Assembly: GCA_963921825.1 (NCBI GenBank)
Contig: OY997588.1
Coordinates: forward strand, 8,074,001-8,138,000
Direction of reading: 5' to 3'
DNA: 64,000 nucleotides
DNA from: Erodium maritimum
Taxonomy: Eukaryota > Streptophyta > Magnoliopsida > Geraniales > Geraniaceae
How positions within the stretch are numbered: the stretch's first letter is position 1; every line of letters starts with the position of its first letter. This document shows positions 22,179-40,528 of the stretch, one piece after another. Under the pieces are notes generated by a model. It was not told where the DNA came from and made no database searches. It saw only the letters and a program-made list of their open reading frames with translations. The position numbers and the translations under genes were made by a program.

Positions 22179-25100
22179 GGCTGCTTGCTTGGAACTGCCG
22201 GGGGCTTGGGAACCCCTGGGCGCAACAGTTCCTTGTCGAGCTTGTAGCTCGAAAGCGACCCGAGATCGTCTTTCTATCTGAAACTAAGTGTCAGAAAGCA
22301 TTGATTGATCATATGAGCAGGATGATGCGTATGGGTGGATCTTTTGTAGTGAATAGCAGAAATGGAGGAGGTGGTATTGCCATGTTTTGGGCAAATAGGG
22401 AGGACGGTATGCTGAGAACTTTCTCAAAGTCACATATTGATCTCCTTACAGTTAATGATGAAGGTGTGCAGGTTCGGGTGACTGGTTTGTATGGGCAACC
22501 GAGAAGAGACAAGAGGAAGGAGACATGGGATTTGTTACGCAGACTAAGTGAACAGGAGGATCTTCCGTGGGTTGTTCTTGGTGATTTTAACAATACCCTT
22601 TCTGATGCAGATACGAGAGGAAGAAATTTGTACCCAAGACAGTTGCAGGTTGGTTTTGGTCAAGCTCTGATGGATAGTGGTCTGCGTGATATCCCCATAA
22701 CAGGGTACCGGTACACCTGGGAGAGGGGAAGGAACAACCCAGAGAGGGTGGAAACACAGTTGGATCGTGCTACATCCAACAGGCGCTGGGATGAGTTATA
22801 CCCGGACACCTTATTACTCAATGGGGGTCTGTCAACATCTGACCACACCCCTATCTGGGTAATTGGGAAGAAGGAGGAAATAGGTTGGAGATCCCGCTGT
22901 TTCAGGTTCGAAGAGGGTTGGACAAGAGAACCCGAATGTGAGCAAGTGATCAGACGTGTTTGGGAGGAGGAGAATGATTTGGGTATTCATGACAGACTGA
23001 AATACACGGCGGGGGAGCTCAGTAAGTGGGCGAATGCCAATCCTGATACACTGAACAAGCGTATTCGGGATTGCCAGGAGGAAATGAATAGACTAAAGGG
23101 GAGATGGGATCAAGTTAGTGGTGAAAGAGTTCATTACCTCAGGGGTCAGTTGACACTTCTTTTGGCCCAGAGAGATGATAGGTGGAAGCAACGAGCCAAA
23201 CAACACTGGCACAATTCGGGAGACAGGAACACTAGGTACTTCCAAGCAAAGTGTTCTGCGCGCAGAAGAAGAAACCGGATTGTGAAGTTGACAGATGACA
23301 GTGGTATTCAGAGGGAGTGGGGGAAGGGCCTGGAGGAGGTTATGATTCAGTATTTTGAGGGTTTATTCCTGCAGGAGTCTGAAGTTGAAGATGATGTGAG
23401 TCAACTGGTACCTCAGACGGTTACAGACGTCCATAATGAGGACCTACTTCGGCCGGTTACTCTGATGGAAGTGAGGACAGCTCTATTTAGTATGATGCCC
23501 CTGAAAGCCCCGGGGCCTGACGGTTTCAACCCGGGTTTTTTCCAGAGATACTGGTCAGTACTTCATCCCCACTTACTCCGGGTGGTGCAGCAGGCTTTTG
23601 AATCAGGTTCTGTTCCCTCTGTTTTAAACGAAACTAATTTGGTTTGAATTCCAAAAGTTAGACGACCTGCGACTATGGCTGAATTTCGTCCAATAGCGTT
23701 GTGTAATGTGGTTTACAAAATAATATCCAAGGTTATTGTGAACAGAATGACAGGTATCTTACAGGTCTCTATCTCGGACTCTCAGAGTGCCTTCCTGAAA
23801 GGTCGACTGATCACCGATAACATCATCATTTCAGGAGAGGTACTACATTATCAGAGGAATAAGAGACAGGGTCAGGCTGGACAGATGGCTATGAAAGTTG
23901 ATATGAGGAAAGCTTATGACCGGGTGGACTGGGGTTACTTGGAAAGGGTGTTAAACCGTATGGGTTTTTCTGCCAAGTGGGTGGGATTGATCATGTCCTG
24001 TGTTCGGTCTCCCCAGTTATGGATTTCCACAGAAGGGAAAAGGTTGGGACCCATTAGGCCGGGACGGGGAATCAGACAGGGTGATCCTCTATCCCCATAT
24101 TTCTTTATCGTTTGTGCAGAAGGACTTTCCCGTTTAATTACAAGTTATGAACAACAGGGGTTGATTACTGGTACTAGAGTAGTAAGGGATGCTCCCCCTA
24201 TTACTCACTTGTTTTTTGCAGACGATAGCTTTTTCTTCGGAAAGGCGAATGAGGAGGAAGCGGAGGCCTGGAGGGAAGTGTTGGGACGGTATGAGAGGGC
24301 TTCGGGGCAACAAATCAACGCCCAAAAGTCATCGATATCTTTTAGTCCTAATACATTACCGGCTAGAAGAGAAGGGGTGGAAGGTATTTTGGGAATGTCG
24401 CAGGTTGTGGATGTGGGGTCGTACTTGGGACTCCCGGCAGTGATAGGGAGAAGCAGATATAAGGCGTTCAGGTACATCAAAGATCGTATTTCCCGCAGAT
24501 TGACAAGCTGGGACGAACTTTTACTAAGCAAGGCTGGTAAGGAAGTTTTGTTAAAATCTGTTATACAAGCCCTCCCTATGTACTCAATGAGTGTTCACCT
24601 ATTACCTGTTTCATTGATTCGAGAGATTGAGGTAATTATGAACAGGTTTTGGTGGTCTCATAACACCAAGACAGGTTCGGGCATTAAGTGGCGTAGGTGG
24701 GGTGCATTATGTGATCATAAACTGCAGGGTGGTTTGAGTTTTAAACATCTGCATGATTTTAATCTTGCGCTGCTAGGTAAGCAAGGTTGGAGGTTGATGT
24801 CGAATCCGGAGAGCCTTGTCAGTAGAGTTTTGAAGGCGAAATATTATCCCATGACAGATTTTATACATGCTCTGAGGAAACCAAATTCGAGCCCCATCTG
24901 GAATAGCATTATGGCCGCCCATGATGTGGTTAGAAGAGGTGTCCGCAGAAGTATCGGGTCGGGAGATCAGACTTTCCTCACCGGAGCTCCTTGGGCTGAG
25001 TCGGCGTCCGGTTACTTGGTGGATGTGGACGGCCCAATGGAGTTTTGGCCGGTTAGCAGACTGTTTTGGCCAGGCAGAAGGGAGTGGAATGTGGAGTTTA

Positions 25101-26258
25101 TCCAGCGGGTACTCTCCGAGAGAGATGCTGAGGCGGTACTTAAGGTCCCCCTCAATTCGGGTCGGGACGCTGATACTTGGTTCTGGAAAGGTACTCGTGA
25201 TGGTATTTATTCTGTGAAATTGGTTTACATGGAGATTCAGGCAGTTGCAGGAAGGTGGGGCCCGAATAGCAGGGATGAGTTTTGGAAGAAGTTGTGCTCT
25301 CTACGGGTTCCCCCAAAGGTCGTTCACATGTTATGGGGGGGAGCTTCTGGGATACTCCCCACTGGGGCTTGTCTTAGAACCAGGAGGGTGGATGTCTCAG
25401 GACTTTGTGGGGTTTGTGGAGAAGAAGAGACTGATTCCCATGTTTTGCTATCCTGTTCAGTTGCTGTTGATGTGTGGAGTAGGGTTCCGAGTGTTTCTTT
25501 ACGCCAGATCGATTCGATTCGTGGGTGGTTGACCCACAATTGGGAGACATGCTCTCGTGAGGAGGCGGAGCTACTCGGGGTTGTCTGTTGGGAGCTGTGG
25601 AAAGCCCGGAATAACCGTGTTTGGAATGACAAGGCCACTTCGGCCGAGACTATTTTCAGGGCAGCAGTGAAGCTGGAGTCGGAGTGGAAAGCAGCTCAGT
25701 CTCATCAACACCTCCCTGGAGTCCCTCGACCGGTTGGTCCTGACAAATGGGGCAAACCAGTCGAGGGCTCCATTAAGGTGAACTCGGACGGTGTAGTGGT
25801 GGCAGGACATGGAGGAGCAGGCGGATTCATTTGTAGGGACAGCCAAGGTACAGTGGTGGGATTTAGATGTTTTATTTCTCCACATTTGTCTGACCCAGAG
25901 ATTTTGGAGGCTCTAGCAGTCAAGGAAGCACTGGTGTGGTTGAGAAGCAGTGAATGGTTAGCAGGATCAATCGAGACTGACTGTCTTGGAGTAGTCCTTG
26001 CCATCAATAATCCAGCGCGCCTGCTATATCCGTTGGGGGGGGGGGATTATTGATGATTGTAAGGCTATTTTAAGTCAATTACCAGGGGTGAGAGTTAACC
26101 ATGTTCGTAGAGTAGCCAATAGAGTGGCACATGAGTTGGCTCGTAATGCTTATACTTGGGTTCATCTTGTACTGAATTTGAATCAATTGCCAAACCCCAT
26201 CCCGGGGCTCCTGGTTATTGATTCCGAGTAATGAATTATACTTCCCTCAAAAAAAAAA
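21910..26258 (+). mobile_element. L1-like LINE, 5'-truncated, near-intact ORF2
   Basis: The C-terminal end of an ORF1 is followed by a complete ORF2 (endonuclease, reverse transcriptase, zinc-binding region, RNase H) and an oligo(A) run at 26,249-26,258, about 20 bp after the ORF2 stop. The 5' boundary is placed by eye near 21.91-21.95 kb, where ORF1-like coding starts. An imperfect repeat of TTTTGAATGG-type sequence lies just upstream (21,848-21,930) and similar sequence (TTGAATGGGAGTT) follows the poly(A), so a target duplication is possible but not resolved. Two lesions disable ORF2. The rest reads open for 4 kb, indicating a young insertion. Confidence 0.85.
22175..26231 (+). pseudogene. 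LINE ORF2 polyprotein (endonuclease / reverse transcriptase / RNase H) with two lesions
   Basis: The order is as follows. An AP-like endonuclease (22,175 to about 22,870) carries NCRGLG, SETKC, VLGDFNN, QLDRA and SDHTP. A reverse transcriptase (about 23.5-24.6 kb) carries EFRPIALCNVVYKI, QSAFLKGR, KAYDRVDW, GIRQGDPLSPYFF and the catalytic HLFFADD. A zinc-binding RT-associated segment follows (about 25.26-25.48 kb, LCGVCGEEETDSHVLLSC). An RNase H domain (about 25.76-26.2 kb) carries NSDG, EALAVKEAL, ETDCLG and ANRVAHELAR. In-frame TGA at 23,645-23,647 splits the polyprotein just before the RT. A frame change at the 11-G run (26,035-26,045) shifts the last about 60 residues to another frame. 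With one stop and one homopolymer shift, either lesion could be a sequencing error. Confidence 0.9.
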
Positions 26259-27681: not shown

Positions 27682-27691
27682 TATAGTTACA

Positions 27692-27757
27692 GAGGCGAAA
27701 TCAGCTGAGAACCACAATTAACGTAGGAACTGTGAGAACTCATCTGATCCGTCCATA
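27692..27757 (+). repeat. Left terminal inverted repeat of the MULE
   Basis: It begins GAGGCGAAATC immediately after the target duplication. It matches the reverse complement of 37,690-37,756, with the longest identical block TAGGAACTGTGAGAAC. Confidence 0.92.
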
Positions 27758-28358
27758 AACAGCAACCAACAGCCCAGATCAAACCTCCAGCTCCTTCCTA
27801 TTTTGCACGCTTCTTCATCAACGCAGGGGTAAGACCGTCAATTCGACTTGCTTCTTCCTCGTAATATCAGTCATCGCAGTCGTTGTTGTCGCGCGATTCA
27901 AACAGTTTCACGCTTATCTCTCGCCAATTCAACTGCAAAACAGGTCAGAAATCTTTGCTTTCATGATTCGATGATCATACAAACACATTCGAGCGACAAT
28001 TCTCTCTTCTCTACAACCTGAAAATCGTGCTCTGTTTTTCTTCTTTCTCTGTGCATCGCAAAATTCAGTTGTTTTGTCGACGGATCAAGCTCAAAAACTG
28101 GTGATAATTTCCTTTCCACTTCATTAGATCTTCATGTAATCAATTCGACAAAAAAAAAATCAAAATTAAGCTTGTGATTCAAAAATTTGATATCATGCTC
28201 TGTTCTACAGTTTATCAACTATTTTCTGCGAAATCATCTTATTTATCGCCAGATCAACATGTCTGTGACTGTGATAAACATGTCCAGTCGTGCTGTAGAG
28301 AAATCGTTGAGAAAATTACGGTTTCTTAGTGATAAAACCTAGCTTCAAGTCGCGTTAT

Positions 28359-28990
28359 GTTGATAAATGTACGGTTAATAGTTGATAAATGACTCTGGTC
28401 TGGTGCTTGTCTAAGTTGATAATCAATGCAGACACGCGTGTGTTGTCTGACAACGTTGATAAATCTGTAGTTTGGATGTTGATAACTGTACGTTAATAGT
28501 TGATAAATGACTCTGGTTTGGTGCTTGTCTGAGTTGATAATCGATGCAGACACGCGTGTGTTGTCTAACAACGTTGATAAATCTGTAGTTTGGATGTTGA
28601 TAAATGTATGGTTAATAGTTGATAAATGACTCTGGTCTGGTGCTTGTCTGAGTTGATAATCGATGGAGGCACGTGTTGTGTTGTCTGACAACATTGATAA
28701 GTATATGGTGTTACGTTGATAACCGTTGGATTTAGGGCTGATAATTGACTGCAATGTGGTGTTTGTCTGACTTGATAACCTGATCAGGCACATGTTGTGT
28801 GGTCTGATAAGATGATAAATCTAGGGCGTCTAGTTGATAAATGTAGGTCTAGGATAGATAAATCATGTGAACTGATTCTTGTCTGAGTTGATAACCTATG
28901 CAAGCACATGTTCTGTTGACTGAAACAGTTGATAAGCCTAATGTGTTATGTTGATAAAATACCTGTTCGTGAGTTGATAATTCTGTATGT
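28359..28990 (+). repeat. 118-bp tandem repeat, five copies plus a partial
   Basis: Copy starts (GTTGATAA) are at 28,359, 28,478, 28,596, 28,715 and 28,833, with a partial copy from 28,950, giving a period of 117-119 bp. Each unit carries about four TGATAA motifs and the phrase CTTGTCTGAGTTGATAA. The first three copies are close to identical and the last two are diverged. The array lies in what is probably the 5'-leader intron of the transposase gene (donor GTAAGA at 27,829 or another upstream; acceptor GATGCAG ending at 29,003). Confidence 0.9.
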
Positions 28991-29005
28991 GCATGTGATG
29001 CAGTG

Positions 29006-31684
29006 ATGGGAAGCATGGATCATGATGATGCAGAGTTCGGATTCGAATATGAAGATGACGACGAGATTGTTACAGAAACTATAAGCACTCAGAAAGTTTG
29101 GATCCCTGAATGTGGTGATGAGTTAAAGCCTCGGAAGAATATGAACTTTTCCTCCTTAGAGGAGAGAATTATTTTCTACCAAACGTATGCATTAAATTGT
29201 GGGTTTGGGATACGTCGAGGCGCTGAGAAGAAAAAACCAAGGAGTAACACAGTCTTTTTTAAGTACATCTACTGTGCAAGACAAGGAGAACCATTTGTAG
29301 CAAAAATCGAAGGATATATCAATGACAAGATAAGAAAGAGGTCTAGAATGTCTACACGAACATGTTGTATGGCAAGGATGTCTTTGAAGGAAACTGAAAA
29401 TGGATATACTGTATATGAGTTCAGAGAAGACCACAACCACCCGTTACAGTGTAAGCGTGATTTCCAATATCTGAGGTCAAATAGGGATTTATCAGCAAGG
29501 CACGAGCAAATTATTATAGACTGCTCAAAGGTGAATTTGGGAGCTACGAAGGCGTTCAATCTTTACAGCCAAATAGTTGGGGGTCCTAGCAAAGTAGGAG
29601 CATGTCCAACTGACTTCAGGAACTTCCAGCGGGATCTCAAAGTGTACATTGGAGAGAGTGATGCGCAGATCACAATCGACCAACTCCATACTAAAGAAGA
29701 TTATTCTAGCGACTTCTTCTTTGAGTACAAAGTAGATGCTAGTGACCGGCTAAGTCACCTTTTTTGGGCTGATTCAAGGTCAAGGAGGGATTACGAGCTC
29801 TTTGGTGATACGGTATCATTTGATTCAACTTATCAATCAAACAGGTAAAATCATTCCTCAGTGTATGATAAAATTTGTTGTTACTTTGATAAACCATATT
29901 GTTTCAGTTGACAACCCTGATCTGGAAATGATAAACCATATTGTTTCAGTTGACAAGCTGAATCTGGGAATGATAAAACCTTGTTTGATGCTTGATAAAA
30001 TGTCACTCTCAGTTGATAACTTTTTTATTTTTGTTGCAGATACTCAATCGTTTTTGCACCATTCACTGGGGTTGACAACCATAACAAGTCAATCATATTT
30101 GGGGCAGCTTTACTAGCCAAAGAGGATGCTGAATCCTTTGTTTGGTTATTCCAAACATTCCTCAAAGCTATGAAAATGAAAGAACCGATCTGTTTTATAA
30201 CTGACCAAGACCCAGCAATGAGAAAAGCTTTTGAAGAAGTGTTAATGCAGAAGCTTCCTTCTAAAGTAGGTTTCATTTTGAATTAATATGGTGATAAATT
30301 ACAAGTTAGGAGATGCACATTTGTTTGGTCGAGTGTCATAAATATGTTATTCTTCTTGCAGGTGCCTCATAATGTATACCATGAGACAAATTTCAAGAAG
30401 AAATTTAAGGCATTGGTGTGGAGTAACTACACTGAAACAAATGAGTTTGAGCTGAGTTGGAAGTCTTTGATGGAAGAATTCCAACTACATGATCACACTT
30501 GGTTGTCCTCTATGTTTGAAATACGAGATAGGTGGATACCTGCATACTTCCGAGGACTAAAAATGGGTCTATTCCTTAGGACTACATCAAGATCGGAGAG
30601 CGAGAACAGTGCATTTGGTCAATTCACTAACAGGTACCTTTATGGATGATAAAATGAATCATGTGTTATTGATAAATTATGAATTCTTAATTGATAAATA
30701 TTTATGTTGAGACCATGTTGTTTGTTGATTCTATAATTTCTTGTGGTGATAAATGTTTCATGAAGAATTGACAATTTATGGAGTCCTGATTGATAAAATT
30801 AGTTGTTTTCCAGGTGTCTTACTCTGTTTGAGTTCATGTGGCATTTTGATACAGTCGTTGAAGGTCAGAGACAGAAACAATTACAGCTGGACTTCCAATC
30901 AAGCACCTTAGCTCCAAACTTCTTGTTATTATCTGAAATTGAGAAGGATGTTTGGAGGATTTATAGCCGCTCAATCTTCGACATCATAAGGAAAAGTGTG
31001 GTGGGAAAAACCATCAGGTGTGGGATCAAAACATGTGTTGATGAGGATGGAAAGAAGGTATATAACATTGCAAACAAACATGGGGACAAGACGTTTGTTG
31101 TTGTGCAAAGCTTACCTGGGAACCATTGCACATGCTCTTGCATGAGATTTGAAGGATTTGGCATCCCTTGTATGCATATTTTCTTGGCTTTGCAAGCATC
31201 TATGGTTGATCAAATACCAGAGAGCTTGATCACACAAAGATGGACAACGGATGTACGCAAGAATGCTGAAAACTCTAGAGATTCTGAAGAATTACAACCA
31301 TCTGCCTATGGTGAGTGTAAGCAAATTATATCAGACATATGCTCGATGCTTCAATCTTGTGTCCTCCATCCAGCTGTGAACGCTGCAAAGTTGAATGAAC
31401 TTGCAGAACAAGTAAAGGACTTCAAGAAGCAACTGAATGATGATGAAGCTGATGATTTTGAATCAAGCACAACGCATGAACTTCAGACTTTAACAGGGCT
31501 TTCTAAACCTTCACAAGTTATTGTCAAGCTCCCACAAAAATCAAGGACAAAAGGCTGTGGAAAGAGAATACAATCAGGGATGGAAAAGTCCATTGAAGAA
31601 GCTAAGAAAAGGAAGCGCACTTGCAAGGTTTGTGGTGAACCAGGACATGACATCAGGAAATGTCCCCAGAATAACAAAGAATGA
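29006..31684 (+). CDS. FAR1-related MULE transposase (four coding exons)
   Basis: Exons are 29,006-29,844, 30,040-30,265, 30,362-30,633 and 30,814-31,684. All junctions keep frame, giving about 735 residues. The FAR1-type zinc-binding domain spans about residues 48-142, with CCMAR and the final DHNHPL. A MULE DDE transposase core follows, with aspartates in FDSTYQSN (about 273) and TDQDPAM (about 335) and a glutamate in RSESENS (about 434). Next are a SWIM zinc finger (CTCSCMRFEGFGIPCMH, about 550) and a C-terminal CCHC knuckle (CKVCGEPGHDIRKC, about 715). It would bind the element ends and catalyse cut-and-paste transposition. Oddity: between the second D and QKLPSK the usual C-x-W-H segment of FAR1/MULE transposases is missing, an apparent in-frame loss of about a dozen residues, so activity is doubtful. 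A preceding in-frame GTG at 29,003 was not used. Confidence 0.9.
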
Positions 31685-32377
31685 AGTGATAAATCTTTTA
31701 GTTCTTTTGATAAACTGTGTTCAAAAGGTTGATAATAGATGTGTTTCTTACTACTGACTCTGTCAGGTTCACACCCTGTGCAACGTTCAAACTTTATTGA
31801 TAAATTCTTCAACTAGTATTGGTAAAGTCTATGTCTAAGGTTGATAAAAAGAATATTATTCTTACTTATGCCTGTCTGTGTGGTGCAGAACAGTTGATAA
31901 TTCCCACTGGATTAGACATGATAAATCTTTTGAAGCAGTTGATAATGTCTTCAGACATGCATGATAAAAATCAACTTCAACTCATAAATAACTCTAGATA
32001 TAAAATATATCCAGATGAACTGATAATACCTGAGAACTAGGTGATAAAACAAGTTATATAGTTGATAAATCTGTTCACGCAGTTGATAATATCTGAACAC
32101 ATGTATGATAAAAATCAACTTCAATCCACATGAACTGATAATACATGAAAAGAAGTTGATAAACACAAACACATACAGTTGATAAACCCAGTTGTCAGAT
32201 ATGATAAGGCATTAAACCTTTCAGGATCATTCTTGTCCACAAAAAACACTTAACACATGTCTGTACATTTCATACACCTTGTTTCCCCCCATAAAACTAA
32301 AGTGATCACAAAGTCATTACACCTTCACCAAAATATAAACCACAACACACAACATTGTTTTTGACATCTACCAAGTA
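31685..32377. other. Convergent intergenic spacer of the MULE
   Basis: This spacer lies between the transposase stop (31,684) and the protease stop (32,378). Up to about 32,215 it is occupied by TGATAA-type motifs in + orientation. The remaining about 160 bp, next to the protease stop, lack them and probably form the 3' UTR of the protease gene. Confidence 0.7.
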
Positions 32378-35300
32378 CTACCCGGTTCTTTCCAAAGAAC
32401 CTGAAGATACTCCATCGTCATTAGCTTGTTCCTTCATCTGGAAATAACTCCTAATCCTTGTCTCATTAATTATCGTTCCTGTGCTGCTTGGGTATGTGCA
32501 GAGCTTCATGAGATAGCGATGCCTCAGGTTTGCTATTTGATCAGCCTATATGCACACAACAAAAAACCAAAACTAGTTAAATCCGTAGCAACAAAATATA
32601 CGAAAAGACGAACAACATATACAAAAAATATGATCTTACGTTGTTTTTTAACATTGGATACCCCCAAGCACTGCCGCTCTCACCCATATATCGTTCCATG
32701 TGGAACATACAATACACACCACAGTCGATCTTGTTGGCGTTGCTGCTCCAGTCTATCTTCAGACGCCTTGCACTTGCATTTTTAATTTTCACCGAGAGTG
32801 TCGCGTCATGCTTTTCCAGAAATGCAGAAATCCTATTCTTCTGCCGATTATAGAAAACATACGCATATTAGAACCTAAAAAGGTGCATAATTTAATAACT
32901 AAATTACACATATACTTACCAAATTGTTAATTCTGTTGCCATATTTGGATCTAAAGTTCGACCCCTCCAAATTATCAATTACAGAAATACTAGGTTTCTT
33001 CATATGGATGCACACCAAGTAATAATGATTGCATGCATGAATTAGGAAAAACACTTGTAGTTGATAAAATGAACCATACCAATGTGGTTACACACATGCA
33101 CAAAACTATAAGCATAGATAAACCCAAAAAATAGAGGGAGATTTATTACCAAATCAGTGGCAGTGATATCCACATGCGGGTACATACCCAACTCGATTTC
33201 AATTTGTTCAGCCCAACTTCCACTCTTTGAATCGGTTAACCCAACCTGACAATAAAAGGGATGCACAATGTTATACAAATTCCAACATTACTCTTATTAA
33301 AGAGACAACAACTTATATGAACTAAACAACTTACACTTGCATATGGTGTGAAAAAAAACCTCGAAGGTTTGTCTGGTGTTCTCTTATCTTCGATGCAATT
33401 AAGATAAGTTGCCCATCCAATAAGGACACCCATCTTCAATTCCGACCCCACTCTCATAGTGCACAGATCCTTTCTCATCACCCCTAGATCACCATCCATT
33501 ACTTCAAACACCATATCCCTGCAAAAAAACACATTTTCATATAACTGACAGTATTGATAAAATGTCTAGATGAGTTGATAAATCAGTTCAGGATTGGTTG
33601 ATAAATTTGTCAAAGATAGGGACAACAAAATCTAAAATTGGAGTTGATAAACCTAAATAAAAGCATTGATAAAATGTTCAGATAATATTGATAAAAAATG
33701 TGCAGACATATTAAAAAGGCAATATTTCATAAAAATGAGTTATAGTTGATAAAATAAAACACAGAGTTGATAAACCTACAACACAATATTGATAAAAATA
33801 AATTAAAAGAAAGGGCTAGCACAATACCAATCATCTCCCCGCTTATCGTTAAGAAGCCACTCCATCCACATTTTCTCTTCTTCAGTTAATGGAGAATCCA
33901 CATCTGTCATTCTTGTGTCTGACATTTCCACTGCAACTTCCTTCCCTGTTGGCCTTTTCTTTGTACTTCCGGATGATCTCCCGGATGATCTCTCTTGTTT
34001 CTTCTCTTTACCCTTCTTTCCACTGGCTACATCTTCACATACTGCACTTCCTTCATTGATAACTGGTCTTTTCTCAACACTTCCGTCCGTTCTCTCCTGT
34101 TCTTTTTCTTTGCCCTTGTCTAAACTGAGCAAACCTTCACACGCTTCTCTCCCGATCTGACTGACTTCATCAAGCCCTAGGCTGAATGTTGGCATGCCAC
34201 GACCTTCTATCTCAACTCCATTAACCTCTTCCTCAACTCTCTCAACTTCCTCAACTCTCACATTAACATCATCTACAACTTGTTCCCCTACATCAACAAC
34301 TCCTCCCTGTTCACTAACACTGTCCCTTCCTAACCCCGCATCAACATCTTTTCCTAACTCTGCCACCTCTTCCACTATCTCCTCACTCACGTTGTTATTT
34401 TCTACCCCAACACAATCAGTTTCAACATTCTCTCTTTCTCTTGCAACATGTTGACCACTACTCTGACTGGTCACTTTAGTCGCAGCCTTCATCGCTGCTT
34501 CAAATGCTTTGATAACTTCTGGATGGTTAAAAAAACGGTCCTGTGAGGACTCTTCAATATCATGCTCAGGTTGAGCCCCCAACATCTCGTTGACAGCATC
34601 ATGCAGTCTCCTAACATTGACGGTATCAGAGAAGTTTGAAATGACATTTCTAATGGTTTCCTTGAAAGCCACAAAGCATTCAGCAAGCTGTATTGCTTGA
34701 TTCGCCAAGTTTACAATGCATTCCTACAAAAGTTGCAACAAAAAAATGTCAGCGTTAACACAAAAATCATCAATTTCAAACACAAAGTATTTTGATTATA
34801 CCTCTTGTTGTACTCCGGGAATGACATTATCTGTTTCCTTCGGCACGTACAGGTCTTTCTCGATATAACCTTCCCCGAACGAGGCATACTTCAATTCAAG
34901 AAGCTCCCGGTTTTTCAAATGCTCACTTGTCCAACCTATAACAGATGGTTGGGCCCTATCGACAGTTCTTTTCTCCAGAACTACACGATCGACATAGTAA
35001 AGCTGCACAACACCAAAAAAAAGAACATGTGACTCCTGCCAGTGATAAAACCATGAAACAGATATGATAAAACATGGGTTAACATTGATAAACAGGGTGA
35101 GATCAGAAAACAAAACATGTGACTTCTGGCAGTGATAACATCACTTAACTGAGATGATAAAAATCAGTTATGTGATGATAAAACACACAACCATGAAAAG
35201 GGAGGTCAAAAACAGAGATGATAAAACATGGTTTAACAGTGATAACATCATTTAACTGATATGATAAAAATCAGTTCTATGATGATAAAACACACAACCA

Positions 35301-36592
35301 TGAAAAGGGAGATCAGAAACAGAGATGATAAAAACATGTTTAACAGTGATAACATCATTTAACTGAGATGATAAAAATCAATTTTATAATGATAAAAACA
35401 CAAAACGAAAGGGAGATCAGAAAAAAAAAAAGACAGACTAACCATAAAAAAAGTCATTGGACCGGCATAGAACTTCTCTCCGGTAACTGATTTCTCCCAC
35501 TTCTTTTGGCTTTCAAGGAGGCCATCAATAACATATGAACACCAGTTGTACTCCTCAATAGCATCTGGATCCTCAATTCCATACAAGACTGAGTGATTCA
35601 CATAGCTCCCACTTATGCCTTCTACCATCAGTGTAGAGAATAAGACCAGAAAATTCCATTTGAACATTGCATCTCTTCCCCTTTGATTCTTCATTTTATC
35701 GATCACATTCCCCATCGTCACATGAAACACCGACTTCGCCTTCTCGAACTGCTCAAACCACCGCTCAACAACTAGAGAATTCTCAGTCCGCCTTGCAACA
35801 ATTGGACGCCCACCGAGGGGGATCCCCAATGTCTCCCAGACATTTACATCACTGACATGTAAAAACTTGTCCTGCCCAAGTTTCAGACACCTACTACCAG
35901 TATGGAAATTACTCGCAAGAAAAAACCTCAAGGCTTGGGGTAATTCCTTCACTCGCAGCTGAAAAAGCCTAGAAAACCCCATCTCAAAGATACCCACCCT
36001 CTGATCATCTGTCACACTCTCTAGGAAATTTACCAGGGATTTTGGTGATGTCCTAATCTTCAACCTTCGGACACCATCCCCCCTTGAAACCACAAGCTCT
36101 TTCTTGCTCTTCTTTGTCGGTGGAATTGCAACCTCTTCACCCTTTCCCAGCCCCCTCTTCTTGACAGGGACGACAACAAGTTCCATCGATGGAGGCTCTC
36201 CTACATTATCTTCAGCATTAGGAGGTGGTGGAGTCGATGAACCTTGCCCCACATTATCTTCAGCATTGGGAGGGGTTGGTGTTGACGATCCTTGTCCTAC
36301 ATTATCTTCAGCATTAGGAGGGGCAGGACTTGATGAACCTTGTCCTATGTCTTTTGTTGCTTGACTACGAGTGACTACCACTGATGAAACCTCTCTTGCT
36401 GGATTGGGAGGAACTTTGATCTTGACAGTGAGTTTTTTGGCTTTCCCTGTACACATAAAAATCATAAAAATCAACTGAATAATCATCACAAACACCAAGA
36501 TAAAAAAACGATGTTTAAATAATTCAAAACCTTCTACCTGGAATCATATCCTTCAGCAGCATTGAATCATTATTCTCAGTAATCTTCACCAT
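32378..36592 (-). CDS. Transposon-encoded Ulp1/C48-type cysteine protease (nine exons)
   Basis: Exons on the minus strand are 36,592-36,538, 36,446-35,443, 35,002-34,802, 34,723-33,828, 33,518-33,335, 33,245-33,150, 33,053-32,920, 32,840-32,640 and 32,545-32,378, about 979 residues. Three copies of a PPNAEDNVG-containing repeat occur near residues 45-100. A region like that preceding Ulp1 domains in plant transposon proteins (LPQALRFFLASNF, WETLGIPLGGRP) spans about 150-400, then a long acidic linker. The catalytic domain has His in NHYYLVCI, Asp 17 residues later in VIDN, and Cys in DCGVYC. The usual oxyanion-hole Gln six residues before Cys is Asn. Ulp1 proteases process SUMO or related conjugates; the substrate here is unknown. 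Exons 6 and 7 join one base out of phase unless an earlier GTATGT donor (about 33,183) is used, so it may be slightly damaged or alternatively spliced. Confidence 0.8.
35131..35420 (+). repeat. 107-bp tandem repeat in intron 2 of the protease gene
   Basis: Copies start with AGTGATAACATCA at 35,131, 35,238 and 35,345 (period 107). Each carries about four TGATAA-core motifs plus the phrase CAACCATGAAAAGGGAG. It has a different unit from the 118-bp array but the same embedded motif and orientation. Confidence 0.88.
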
Positions 36593-37689
36593 TTTCTGAA
36601 AACAAAACACATTGATACACAAAAAGTGAGCAATCAAAACTAAGAGTGACTGATAAAATACATGAACAAAGGTGATAAACTGTGAATTCATAGTTGATAA
36701 AATACATATATGAAAAAACAATCATTCATACAAAAAAGGTAAAAAGCAATAACTTACAACCTTGATAAATTACATACAAGCAAGTGATAACGTATGAAGA
36801 CACAGTTGATAAAACAGATATATGACAGAACTCTGTTGATAAATGAGCATCATACTTATAAAAAGTTCTTGATAAATTACATGCACTCTGTTGATAAATG
36901 TACAAACATAGTTGATAGAACACATAAGACGAAACACACGAATCTACATAGTTTCAAACAACTAACACTGAACATGCAGATGATAAATCATGACATGCAA
37001 TTGATAAAAATGACGTCCAATGTTGATAACATAGATTTAACCACCTGTAAGCAACCAAAGCCTATGTGTAATCGATAGATCACATAATATACTTGATAAA
37101 AATCAAGCAAAGTTGACAAAACATAGAAAAACAGATCACAACCAAAGACACATTCACTCAAACATGCGTCAAAACACTAAAAACAGAGTGCATGCAACTT
37201 CAAATAGGTTCTTCCTCTCTAAATCGCACAAATAAACGTTCAGAAGCAACTAAATCAAGTATCGAGCGCAAAAATTAGGTCAAAATCGACTGTTCTTAAC
37301 AAAAAAATCCCTAAAATCAGTAACACCCACAGCACACAAAAAAACCTTAAAATCAAAGGAATCAGAGCAACAAACCTTTAGTAGAACTCGAAATACGCTT
37401 CTATTTCACACGATTTGCTTCAACCTTCAACCACGCGCAACGAATCTGGACGACGAACACAAAGAGAAAGGAAGGAGCGAAGAAGACGAACCGAGAGAAA
37501 AAACTGAGAGAGTCGAGATTGCATGAGACGGTTGCTCTTCAGCGTGTGTAAGGAGAGACACAAAATTACCCCTAAACCCTCACCAACACAGCGATATTAC
37601 AAAAATGCCACCGAAACTGCTGTTTTTTTTTCAACAATTGAGTCAACAAGTCAACTGTCCAACTTTGCATCTAAGTCATTCATTCTTGA
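36593..37689 (-). promoter_or_regulatory. 5' leader and promoter region of the protease gene
   Basis: This region upstream of the protease ATG (36,592) holds about 15 + strand TGATAA-type motifs between 36,650 and 37,115. The motif-free part from 37,115 to the right TIR, with short A-rich tracts, is likely promoter and first UTR exon. The acceptor-like TTTTCAG just before the ATG suggests a leader intron that contains the motifs. Confidence 0.5.
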
Positions 37690-37756
37690 TATGGATGACT
37701 CAGATTGGTTCTCACAGTTCCTATCTTAAGAGGTGGTTCTCACCAGATTTCTCCTC
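37690..37756 (-). repeat. Right terminal inverted repeat of the MULE
   Basis: Read on the minus strand it begins GAGGAGAAATC and follows the left TIR with one extra base and scattered mismatches, ending at TCCATA. The 10-bp target duplication follows directly at 37,757. Confidence 0.92.
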
Positions 37757-37766
37757 TATAGTTACA

Positions 37767-39014: not shown

Positions 39015-40528
39015 ATGCAGCCAAAGTCTGGAAGTGGAAACCAGTTAGAATCGGACGCACAAGCTGTTCCACCAACCAATGCTTACTCGGAACCTTGGTG
39101 GCGTGGAATTGGATATAATCCGGCTGTTGCTCGGGGAAATGCTTCAAATTCCTCTTCACTTGAGGGCACAAATTGTGGGTCAGAGTCTGATGGTGGTCAG
39201 TTGCAGTCTGAGGAAGATGATGATGCAACCAAAGATTCACAATCTCATCAATCAGGTATCTTCTTAGCTTCATATTTAAGTCATGGTTTTACTGGCGAGA
39301 CGTGAACTTATGTTGTGCTATATTTATGATCATGTTAGTTTAGACTTTAGATCATTCTAGTTTGCCTTTCAAATATGTTGGGATAACCTTTCAAGGGATC
39401 GGTTGGGATAATAGTGAGTTTATGATTTTAATTTTCAGCTGGTAATCATGGACAAGAACAACATATGCAACATGTAGCATCTGCTGTACCTGCAATGGGC
39501 GATGAAGGCCTAACACAACCTCCACAACTTGAGCTCGTTAGCCACTCAATCGTAAGTATTTTCTTGCTTTTGTCGGAGATTTTCTGATCTCTGTAATTAG
39601 AGGACTTATGCATACGTACATTTATTCAGGCATGCGCATCAAATCCTTATCAGGTTCCATATTATGCGGGAATGGTAGCGGCTTATGGCCATCAGCCTGT
39701 GGTAAGTCAAGTTAATTTACAGCTCATGGATATAATGATTTTAGCTCGGTTTCAAATGTTGTCCAAGAAAAAATCTGAATGCTTGGTTTCCAAGACCCTT
39801 TTGTCACGGATTCAATTCTTATAGATAAGGGAACGTTTGGCTTATTTATGTTTCCTTGATCTCTATTGCAAAGTTAGAAGCTTTGATAATTTTATACTGA
39901 ATGTTATATTATTTTTAACGAAGATCATTGCAATCTCCAGGGCTATCCTCCTTTTGTGGGAATACCTCATGCCAGGATGCCATTGCCTCTAGAGATGACA
40001 CAAGAGCCCGTTTATGTGAATGCTAAACAGTACCAGGGCATTCTAAGGCGAAGACAGGCTCGTGCCAAAGCGGAGCTTGAAAAGAAGCTGATAAAGGCTA
40101 GGAAGGTACAAGTAATATATACACGAGACGTAGTTAAAACATGGTTATGATTGTTCTTCGTTCTCATTACATATTTCCTACAGCCATACCTTCATGAATC
40201 TCGGCATCAGCACGCAATGAGAAGGGCAAGGGGCACGGGAGGGCGCTTTGCAAAGAAGACCGATAATGCTTCAAACCACAGAGGGGAAGAGACACATTGC
40301 CCTGCTCGCTCATCACATTCTGCTACGTCATCTGGATCAGAACCTTTGCACTCAGATTCAGCTGAAACCTGGAACTCCTCTCTGAGTCAGCAAGCTCACA
40401 AGTATCAAAATGGAAGCGGTGGCTCAACATATCATTCGCGACCGGGAACTGAAAGAGGCGAGGAAGCGGGAGACTGCTCCGGCCAGCAATGGGGAAGTAT
40501 CTCACAAAGGCCTCTGGCCATTCAGTAA
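39015..40528 (+). CDS. NF-YA: Nuclear transcription factor Y subunit A (CCAAT-binding)
   Basis: Five coding exons are 39,015-39,255, 39,439-39,551, 39,630-39,701, 39,941-40,105 and 40,184-40,528, all in phase, giving 311 residues. The conserved core is present. The NF-YB/YC interaction helix starts at [17 protein letters not shown] and runs through [15 protein letters not shown]. The DNA-binding part is [22 protein letters not shown], split from the first by the last intron. NF-YA joins the histone-fold NF-YB/NF-YC dimer in the nucleus and contacts CCAAT boxes. The N-terminus is acidic and Ser/Gln-rich, as in activating NF-YAs. A miR169-type site follows the stop. It lies 1.25 kb downstream of the MULE insertion, so the MULE's right end is in its upstream region. 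Confidence 0.95.

Follow-up and report, generated by a model that had tools for sequence, protein, structure and literature searches.

We analyzed a window of 64,000 nucleotides from Erodium maritimum (assembly GCA_963921825.1, contig OY997588.1, positions 8,074,001 to 8,138,000; coordinates below are those of this window), which contains a Mutator-like element (MULE) with two convergent genes, a transposase gene on the forward strand and a gene for an Ulp1-domain protein (gene 2) on the reverse strand. The non-coding DNA of this element is filled with copies of TGATAA that nearly all point the same way, and we regard it as close to certain that this array is a selected, oriented, and regularly spaced cis element. 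By analogy with the anatomy of the VANC systems of Arabidopsis, the most likely reading is that gene 2 binds the array and opposes silencing, which we propose with moderate confidence.

An Oriented Array in Non-coding DNA

An earlier note on this DNA had described a same-strand motif array filling only the non-coding parts of the element, and the counts bear this out more strongly than was claimed. TGATAA occurs 92 times in forward and once in reverse orientation in the 4,952 bp of non-coding DNA (element counts were taken over 27692-37752). In 200 dinucleotide shuffles, the comparison proposed in that note, the means were 4.6 and 2.2 and the maxima 10 and 6. The exons (5,109 bp) are nearly motif-free, as had also been stated, with 2 forward and 3 reverse copies where 1.9 and 2.05 are expected. 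The whole window contains 120 forward and 33 reverse copies, falling to 26 and 29 when the element is excluded. TGATAA is the most frequent non-coding 6-mer of the element and, among 15 6-mers listed, has the greatest forward-minus-reverse difference.

The array extends from 28102 to 37099 (table 1), with the motif sense within the transposase gene and antisense within gene 2; TGATAA is absent from five short gene-2 introns (78-94 bp). Over seven copies, the core is flanked by A at position +1 in 70% and by T at position -1 in 61%, and an extra T is present on 55 of the 92 forward non-coding motifs. The leader repeats at 28430-28910 also bear CACGCGTG-like words, which degenerate along the array. 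We take these words to resemble the FHY3/FAR1 site CACGCGC, and they may offer the FAR1 domain a site of its own.

Spacing and Sequence Constraint

A regular motif spacing of 21-22 bp, not remarked on earlier, was found in addition. Fifty of 82 distances between neighboring motifs (up to 120 bp) measure 21-24 bp. Of the 32 that remain, 30 group into classes separated by roughly one helical turn, at 30-34 (9), 40-47 (12), 53-59 (6), and 68-70 bp (3). Two outlying distances measure 8 and 89 bp, and the ranges 9-20, 25-29, 35-39, 48-52, and 60-67 bp are empty. The spacers are mostly not copies of one another (mean identity 0.34, compared with 0.28 after shuffling).

Constraint was assessed by comparing the window copy with six close copies (L129-L132, L134, and L135) at sites selected by an exact TGATAA match in the window copy. 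The motif had a substitution rate of 0.0074, compared with 0.0326 for the array spacers, 0.0378 for the remaining non-coding DNA, and 0.0188 for the exons, which places it four to five times below the spacers and also below the exons (bootstrap motif/spacer ratio 0.19, 95% interval 0.08-0.33). The same rate order is seen at A/T-only sites, the low-rate stretch comprises TGATAA and one following base, and the median rate of 30 control 6-mers was 0.027. Over the six copies, 451 of 467 retained neighbor distances are the same and 13 are shifted by +1, with one large change (+44) and 19 neighbor pairs lost; control 22-bp segments were altered in length in 27 of 316 cases.

Relatives and Gene-free Elements

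Genome-wide searches covered the 763-Mb genome, and relatives were selected by transposase exon 1 (twenty, then four more). All 22 relatives at ≥77% identity carry mostly forward motifs, with counts in 10 kb ranging from 97 forward and 3 reverse to 28 and 1, the least one-sided being 70 and 14. Motif and orientation, the subject of the second comparison that had been proposed, are conserved in all 22 of these same-genome relatives. Pooled over 23 elements, non-coding TGATAA numbers 1449 forward and 43 reverse; the coding count (100 and 59) is inflated in the forward direction by coding masks that run through some introns. A dense short motif in a single orientation in non-coding DNA is a hallmark of VANC-type systems. 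In four relatives (L147-L150) the arrays lie at different places and keep the same 21-24 bp step. At three loci with exon 1 at 43-47% (L151, L152, and L155, the last only 5 kb), forward motifs number 2-4, and neither an array nor a gene-2 match is present.

Gene 2 lies within 30 kb of the transposase at 17 of 17 and 32 of 35 loci of the array clade and at 0 of 25 loci at 41-47% (13, 28, and 0, respectively, within 12 kb). This count took in 77 of 134 transposase rows (the top 52 and all 25 at 41-47%), omitting the 57 between, which are mostly partial, and most second pieces of the same gene-2 locus; the gene-2 search scored 121 of 872 candidates, so that very remote copies of gene 2 could have escaped the count of 0 of 25. 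Short transposase loci (L121-L128) fall outside the analysis.

Two elements of ~1.3 kb (L153 and L154) have the family terminal inverted repeats (TIRs), 10-bp target duplications, and an inner inverted repeat, and match neither the transposase nor the gene-2 protein. The interior of L153 holds 17 forward and 0 reverse motifs and that of L154 holds 21 and 1, the reverse motif lying outside the inner array. The array is thus retained where coding sequence is absent, which matches the expectation for a cis signal. In both, the array lies between inner inverted repeats of ~150 bp (L153, 2785-3626; L154, 1733-2693).

Head-to-tail TGATAA triples at 21-23 bp number 28,449 genome-wide (14,589 + 13,860; reversed control 46), with 40 at 24-26 bp (control 55) and 20 in which the third motif is flipped (control 4). 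These counts reflect a family habit and not independent events, because secondary copies and duplicated units are counted as well. The first 100 of the 28,449 listed places form 11 clusters, none coinciding with a listed transposase, and rough extrapolation suggests ~3,000 array loci in the genome. Two array places were fetched from the genome-wide list. A very large array with higher-order repeats (C1:4569001-4571177, ~45 listed triples) has an opposite-strand array 700 bp on.

Element Architecture and Transposase

The TIRs of the window copy include a 40-nt arm that is 83% complementary (27718-27757 and 37690-37729). Similar termini occur in L147, L149, L153, and L154, and TIRs with a 10-bp target-site duplication (TSD) were found in all five elements checked, these four and the window copy, as is typical of FAR1/Jittery-type MULEs, which have TIRs with TSDs of 8-11 bp. 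The transposase likewise has the domains of that type, with Pfam matches to FAR1 (5.9e-14), MULE (1.9e-19), and SWIM (6.3e-5), each above cut-off, and a weak CCHC knuckle under the Pfam cut-off. A protein search with the transposase returned 252 homologues, the top named one being FAR1-RELATED SEQUENCE 5-like.

The window transposase lacks the conserved HRxCMWHI block (30230-30260), which is present in this or a near form in 7 of 7 homologues and in 16 of 22 array-bearing relatives; in the remaining six the search anchor was unmatched. Because the block is missing, the window transposase may be inactive, and block-bearing copies exist. Judged by its sequence, the window element is possibly an otherwise fresh one with an inactive transposase.

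Outside the element, a long open frame at 23648-26053 resembles by eye a reverse transcriptase of the non-long terminal repeat type, and an open frame at 39890-40150 has by eye an NF-YA (CCAAT-binding)-like domain, placing a host gene ~2 kb from the insertion.

Table 1. Features of the TGATAA-array element (window coordinates)
Feature	Position	Strand	Description
Whole element	27692-37756		TIRs and 10-bp target duplication
Left TSD	27682..27691	.	TATAGTTACA; same as 37757-37766
Left TIR	27692..27757	+	GAGGCGAAATC...
Leader array	28102..28980	+	25 forward TGATAA, 1 reverse at 28212; partly ~118-bp higher-order repeats
Transposase gene	29006..31684	+	735 aa; exons 29006-29844, 30040-30265, 30362-30633, 30814-31684
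Transposase intron 1 array	29866..30019	+	6 motifs
Transposase intron 2 motif	30292..30297	+	one motif
Transposase intron 3 array	30647..30796	+	5 motifs
Spacer array between convergent genes	31687..32207	+	18 motifs
Gene 2	32378..36592	-	9 exons, 966-aa open frame, canonical splice sites
Gene-2 intron motif	33062..33067	+	one motif
Gene-2 intron array	33555..33795	+	9 motifs, antisense to gene 2
Gene-2 intron array	35043..35395	+	14 motifs, 107-bp repeats
Right leader array	36651..37099	+	13 motifs, upstream of gene 2
Right TIR	37690..37756	-	
Right TSD	37757..37766	.	TATAGTTACA; perfect 10-bp copy

The Second Gene

The gene-2 protein comprises tandem 16-aa repeats near the N-terminus, a charged linker, and a C-terminal Peptidase_C48 (Ulp1) domain, the domain that marks the KIU form of VANC. 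The match to PF02902 is barely above the cut-off (20.9 versus 20.7 bits, E 3.6e-4), and the His, Asp, Cys triad was identified by eye. The coding repeats (36199-36345) consist of three 48-bp (16-aa) units, and their lengths differ between relatives. In 6 of 12 relatives (L137, L144, L146, L147, L149, and L150; for example, 58% versus 81% in L150), these being the more distant ones, the gene-2 core has diverged more than exon 1 of the transposase; among the six closest copies, the two do not differ consistently. A second protein that evolves faster than the transposase is also a VANC-type trait.

Homology of gene 2 with DUF1985 proteins is possible. DUF1985 is abundant in the genome, with at least 150 matches, none of which is at the window's gene 2 among the matches listed. 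One DUF1985 region (L162) has, by eye, the layout of gene 2, with a charged stretch and a C48-like end following the DUF1985 domain; the 2.5 kb downstream of its DUF1985 contain one forward and no reverse TGATAA and no array, and no other array is visible. The full-length gene-2 protein has no DUF1985 match at E≤1. A first protein search with gene 2 gave no match, one with residues 145-430 returned one Artemisia Ulp1-family protein, and a sequence search of PDB with protein P0121 gave nothing below E 0.5. An AlphaFold prediction for exon 2 of gene 2, run together with a single homologue, had a predicted local distance difference test score (pLDDT) of 33 and was not used.

What May Bind the Array

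The earlier note had interpreted the array as a mark at the DNA level by which the element is defined. This is well supported, because the motifs keep one orientation across convergent genes, change slowly relative to the spacers, have a fixed spacing, and are present in 22 of 22 relatives of the same transposase clade and in two gene-free derivatives. We propose that the array would provide cis-acting binding sites for a DNA-binding protein, many copies of which could dock in register on sites that share one orientation and recur at intervals of about two helical turns. The most likely binder would be the element's own gene-2 protein, with its possibly DUF1985-like N-terminal region and its Ulp1 domain. 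Acting like VANC, this protein would coat non-coding DNA throughout its own family, gene-free copies among them, and by analogy would remove or block silencing, allowing genes to be expressed and copies to move. The VANC analogy drawn in the note stands, on anatomical grounds, as the best available model; its "different encoded partner" may be less different than supposed, as gene 2 has the C48 (Ulp1) domain and a weak, sub-threshold match to DUF1985.

Several observations weigh against VANC-like binding by gene 2 or against the constraint and regularity to which it appeals. In gene-2 exon 2 of the window copy the sole Pfam match is to DUF1985, and this is far below threshold (E 0.15, 12.4 versus 35.1 bits); DUF1985 was matched in only one of four proteins scanned, being unmatched in L129 (a 97% identical copy), L149, and P0121. 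Alignment of a gene-2 profile by hhalign with five same-genome DUF1985 pieces gave no match (six were fetched, and L161, which has a stop, was omitted). Two of the 30 control 6-mers (ATAAAA and TAAAAA) show no changes and match the motif in constraint. The fit to a 10.5-bp turn is only approximate, because the best-fit period is 11.3-11.5 for neighbor distances and 10.8 for positions within arrays, and tandem duplication accounts for part of the regularity, because 14 of 49 short spacers match another spacer at ≥80% identity (0.13 expected). Lastly, because the relatives were chosen by transposase, the transposase could equally be the binder.

Binding by the transposase, through its FAR1 or another DNA-binding domain, could serve to assemble or activate the transposition complex or to activate its own expression. 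We consider this unlikely, although two gene-free elements retain both TIR and array, the parts that a transposase would need, and every array-bearing relative has a transposase, albeit by construction, as the relatives were found with it. FAR1-type transposases at 41-47% are without arrays in all three cases fetched, and the sites lie in most introns and up to 5 kb from either end, an unusual placement for transposase sites. Less likely again is a host factor, either GATA-type or nucleosome-excluding, that keeps the element open by binding to the array, with no binder of the element's own. GATAA lies within the core, and A/T-rich two-turn sites could, to judge by sequence, phase nucleosomes. 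However, the strict single orientation (28,449 versus 20 flipped triples) argues against such a factor, which would also leave the co-occurrence of gene 2 unexplained.

A neutral minisatellite, in which slippage spread a single ~22-bp unit that was copied along with the element, is very improbable. Repeats of 118, 107, and 22 bp are present, 25 of 49 short spacers match another at ≥70%, and unit amplification inflates the genome-wide counts as well, so local duplication is real. A purely neutral origin is nevertheless rejected given the motif constraint, at about one-fifth of the spacer rate, and the largely non-homologous spacers; furthermore, exons are free, the wider spacing classes are regular too, and the arrays of L147-L150 lie at other places with the same step. 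An RNA-level signal for splicing, export, or termination, suggested by the many motif copies in introns and leaders, is scarcely credible and is rejected because the motif has opposite orientations relative to the two genes, and it is also present in gene-free elements.

Returning to gene 2 as the binder, we suggest more tentatively, and with some doubt, that sequence-specific anti-silencing operates outside the VANDAL group in a FAR1-type TIR MULE, in which gene 2, as remote VANC kin or by convergence, would read TGATAA in a two-turn register and let array elements, many of them probably gene-free, spread to ~3,000 loci. If this holds, VANDAL elements are not alone in having sequence-specific anti-silencing, which arose in or was transferred to a further MULE lineage, and a 6-bp word with a ~22-bp step suffices to address thousands of loci. 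This would supply a further code for targeted plant demethylation, and the gene-free natural targets and divergent gene-2 variants would offer material for testing protein/DNA co-evolution.

Comparison with Known Systems

Hosaka et al. (2017, PMC5735166) describe VANC21 motifs that are densely packed, share one orientation, lie mainly in non-coding DNA, and show tandem-repeat turnover; the VANC proteins in their account have DUF1985, DUF287, and variable regions that carry repeats. The present system resembles VANC21 and VANC6 of Arabidopsis VANDAL21 and VANDAL6 in its short A/T-rich motif, dense and in one orientation in upstream regions and introns, and in its tandem-repeat dynamics, variable repeat-bearing second protein, and better conserved transposase, as far as the available text of that source describes them (PMC5735166). 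It differs in the motif itself, TGATAA here and YAGTATTAY or AGTTGTCC/AGTTGTAC there (PMC5735166), and in gene 2, where DUF1985 is only a sub-threshold match and DUF287 was not seen. It also has a FAR1-domain transposase and clear TIRs (the 40-nt arm at 83%) with a 10-bp TSD, whereas VANDAL TIRs are called lacking or degenerate. In the available part of another source, some VANDAL-group members are given TIRs, the FAR1 domain is unlisted for that group, and plant Jittery elements have one open reading frame with FAR1 (PMC6446971).

Jittery-like MULEs of grapevine and melon contain ULP sequences (Benjak et al. 2008, PMC2528002). The present element shares with them a Jittery-like transposase; their ULP lies downstream in either orientation, and in KI-MULEs the ULP gene is antisense to the transposase, as here (PMC2528002). 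Unlike the present element, the grapevine and melon MULEs have no motif array or anti-silencing role described in the available text of that source (PMC2528002). Literature titles and abstract openings, with subscription papers mostly uncovered, gave no account of anti-silencing by Jittery elements or of a MULE with a TGATAA array.

KIU and Kaonashi have VANC-type genes bearing an Ulp1 domain (2026 review, PMC13317346), and meeting reports, in their available text, refer to unpublished VANC structures (PMC8756742, PMC12859917). The present system is like KIU and Kaonashi in pairing an Ulp1 domain with motif arrays and unlike them in its host, a FAR1-type TIR MULE, where theirs are, as described, VANDAL, non-TIR MULEs. 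Sasaki et al., in EMBO J in 2022, reportedly found that specificity is set by motif sequence, density, and helical periodicity, and this periodicity resembles the two-turn spacing seen here. By analogy, the present system would add a variant to the known VANC-type kind, with a new motif and a FAR1-type MULE as its host.

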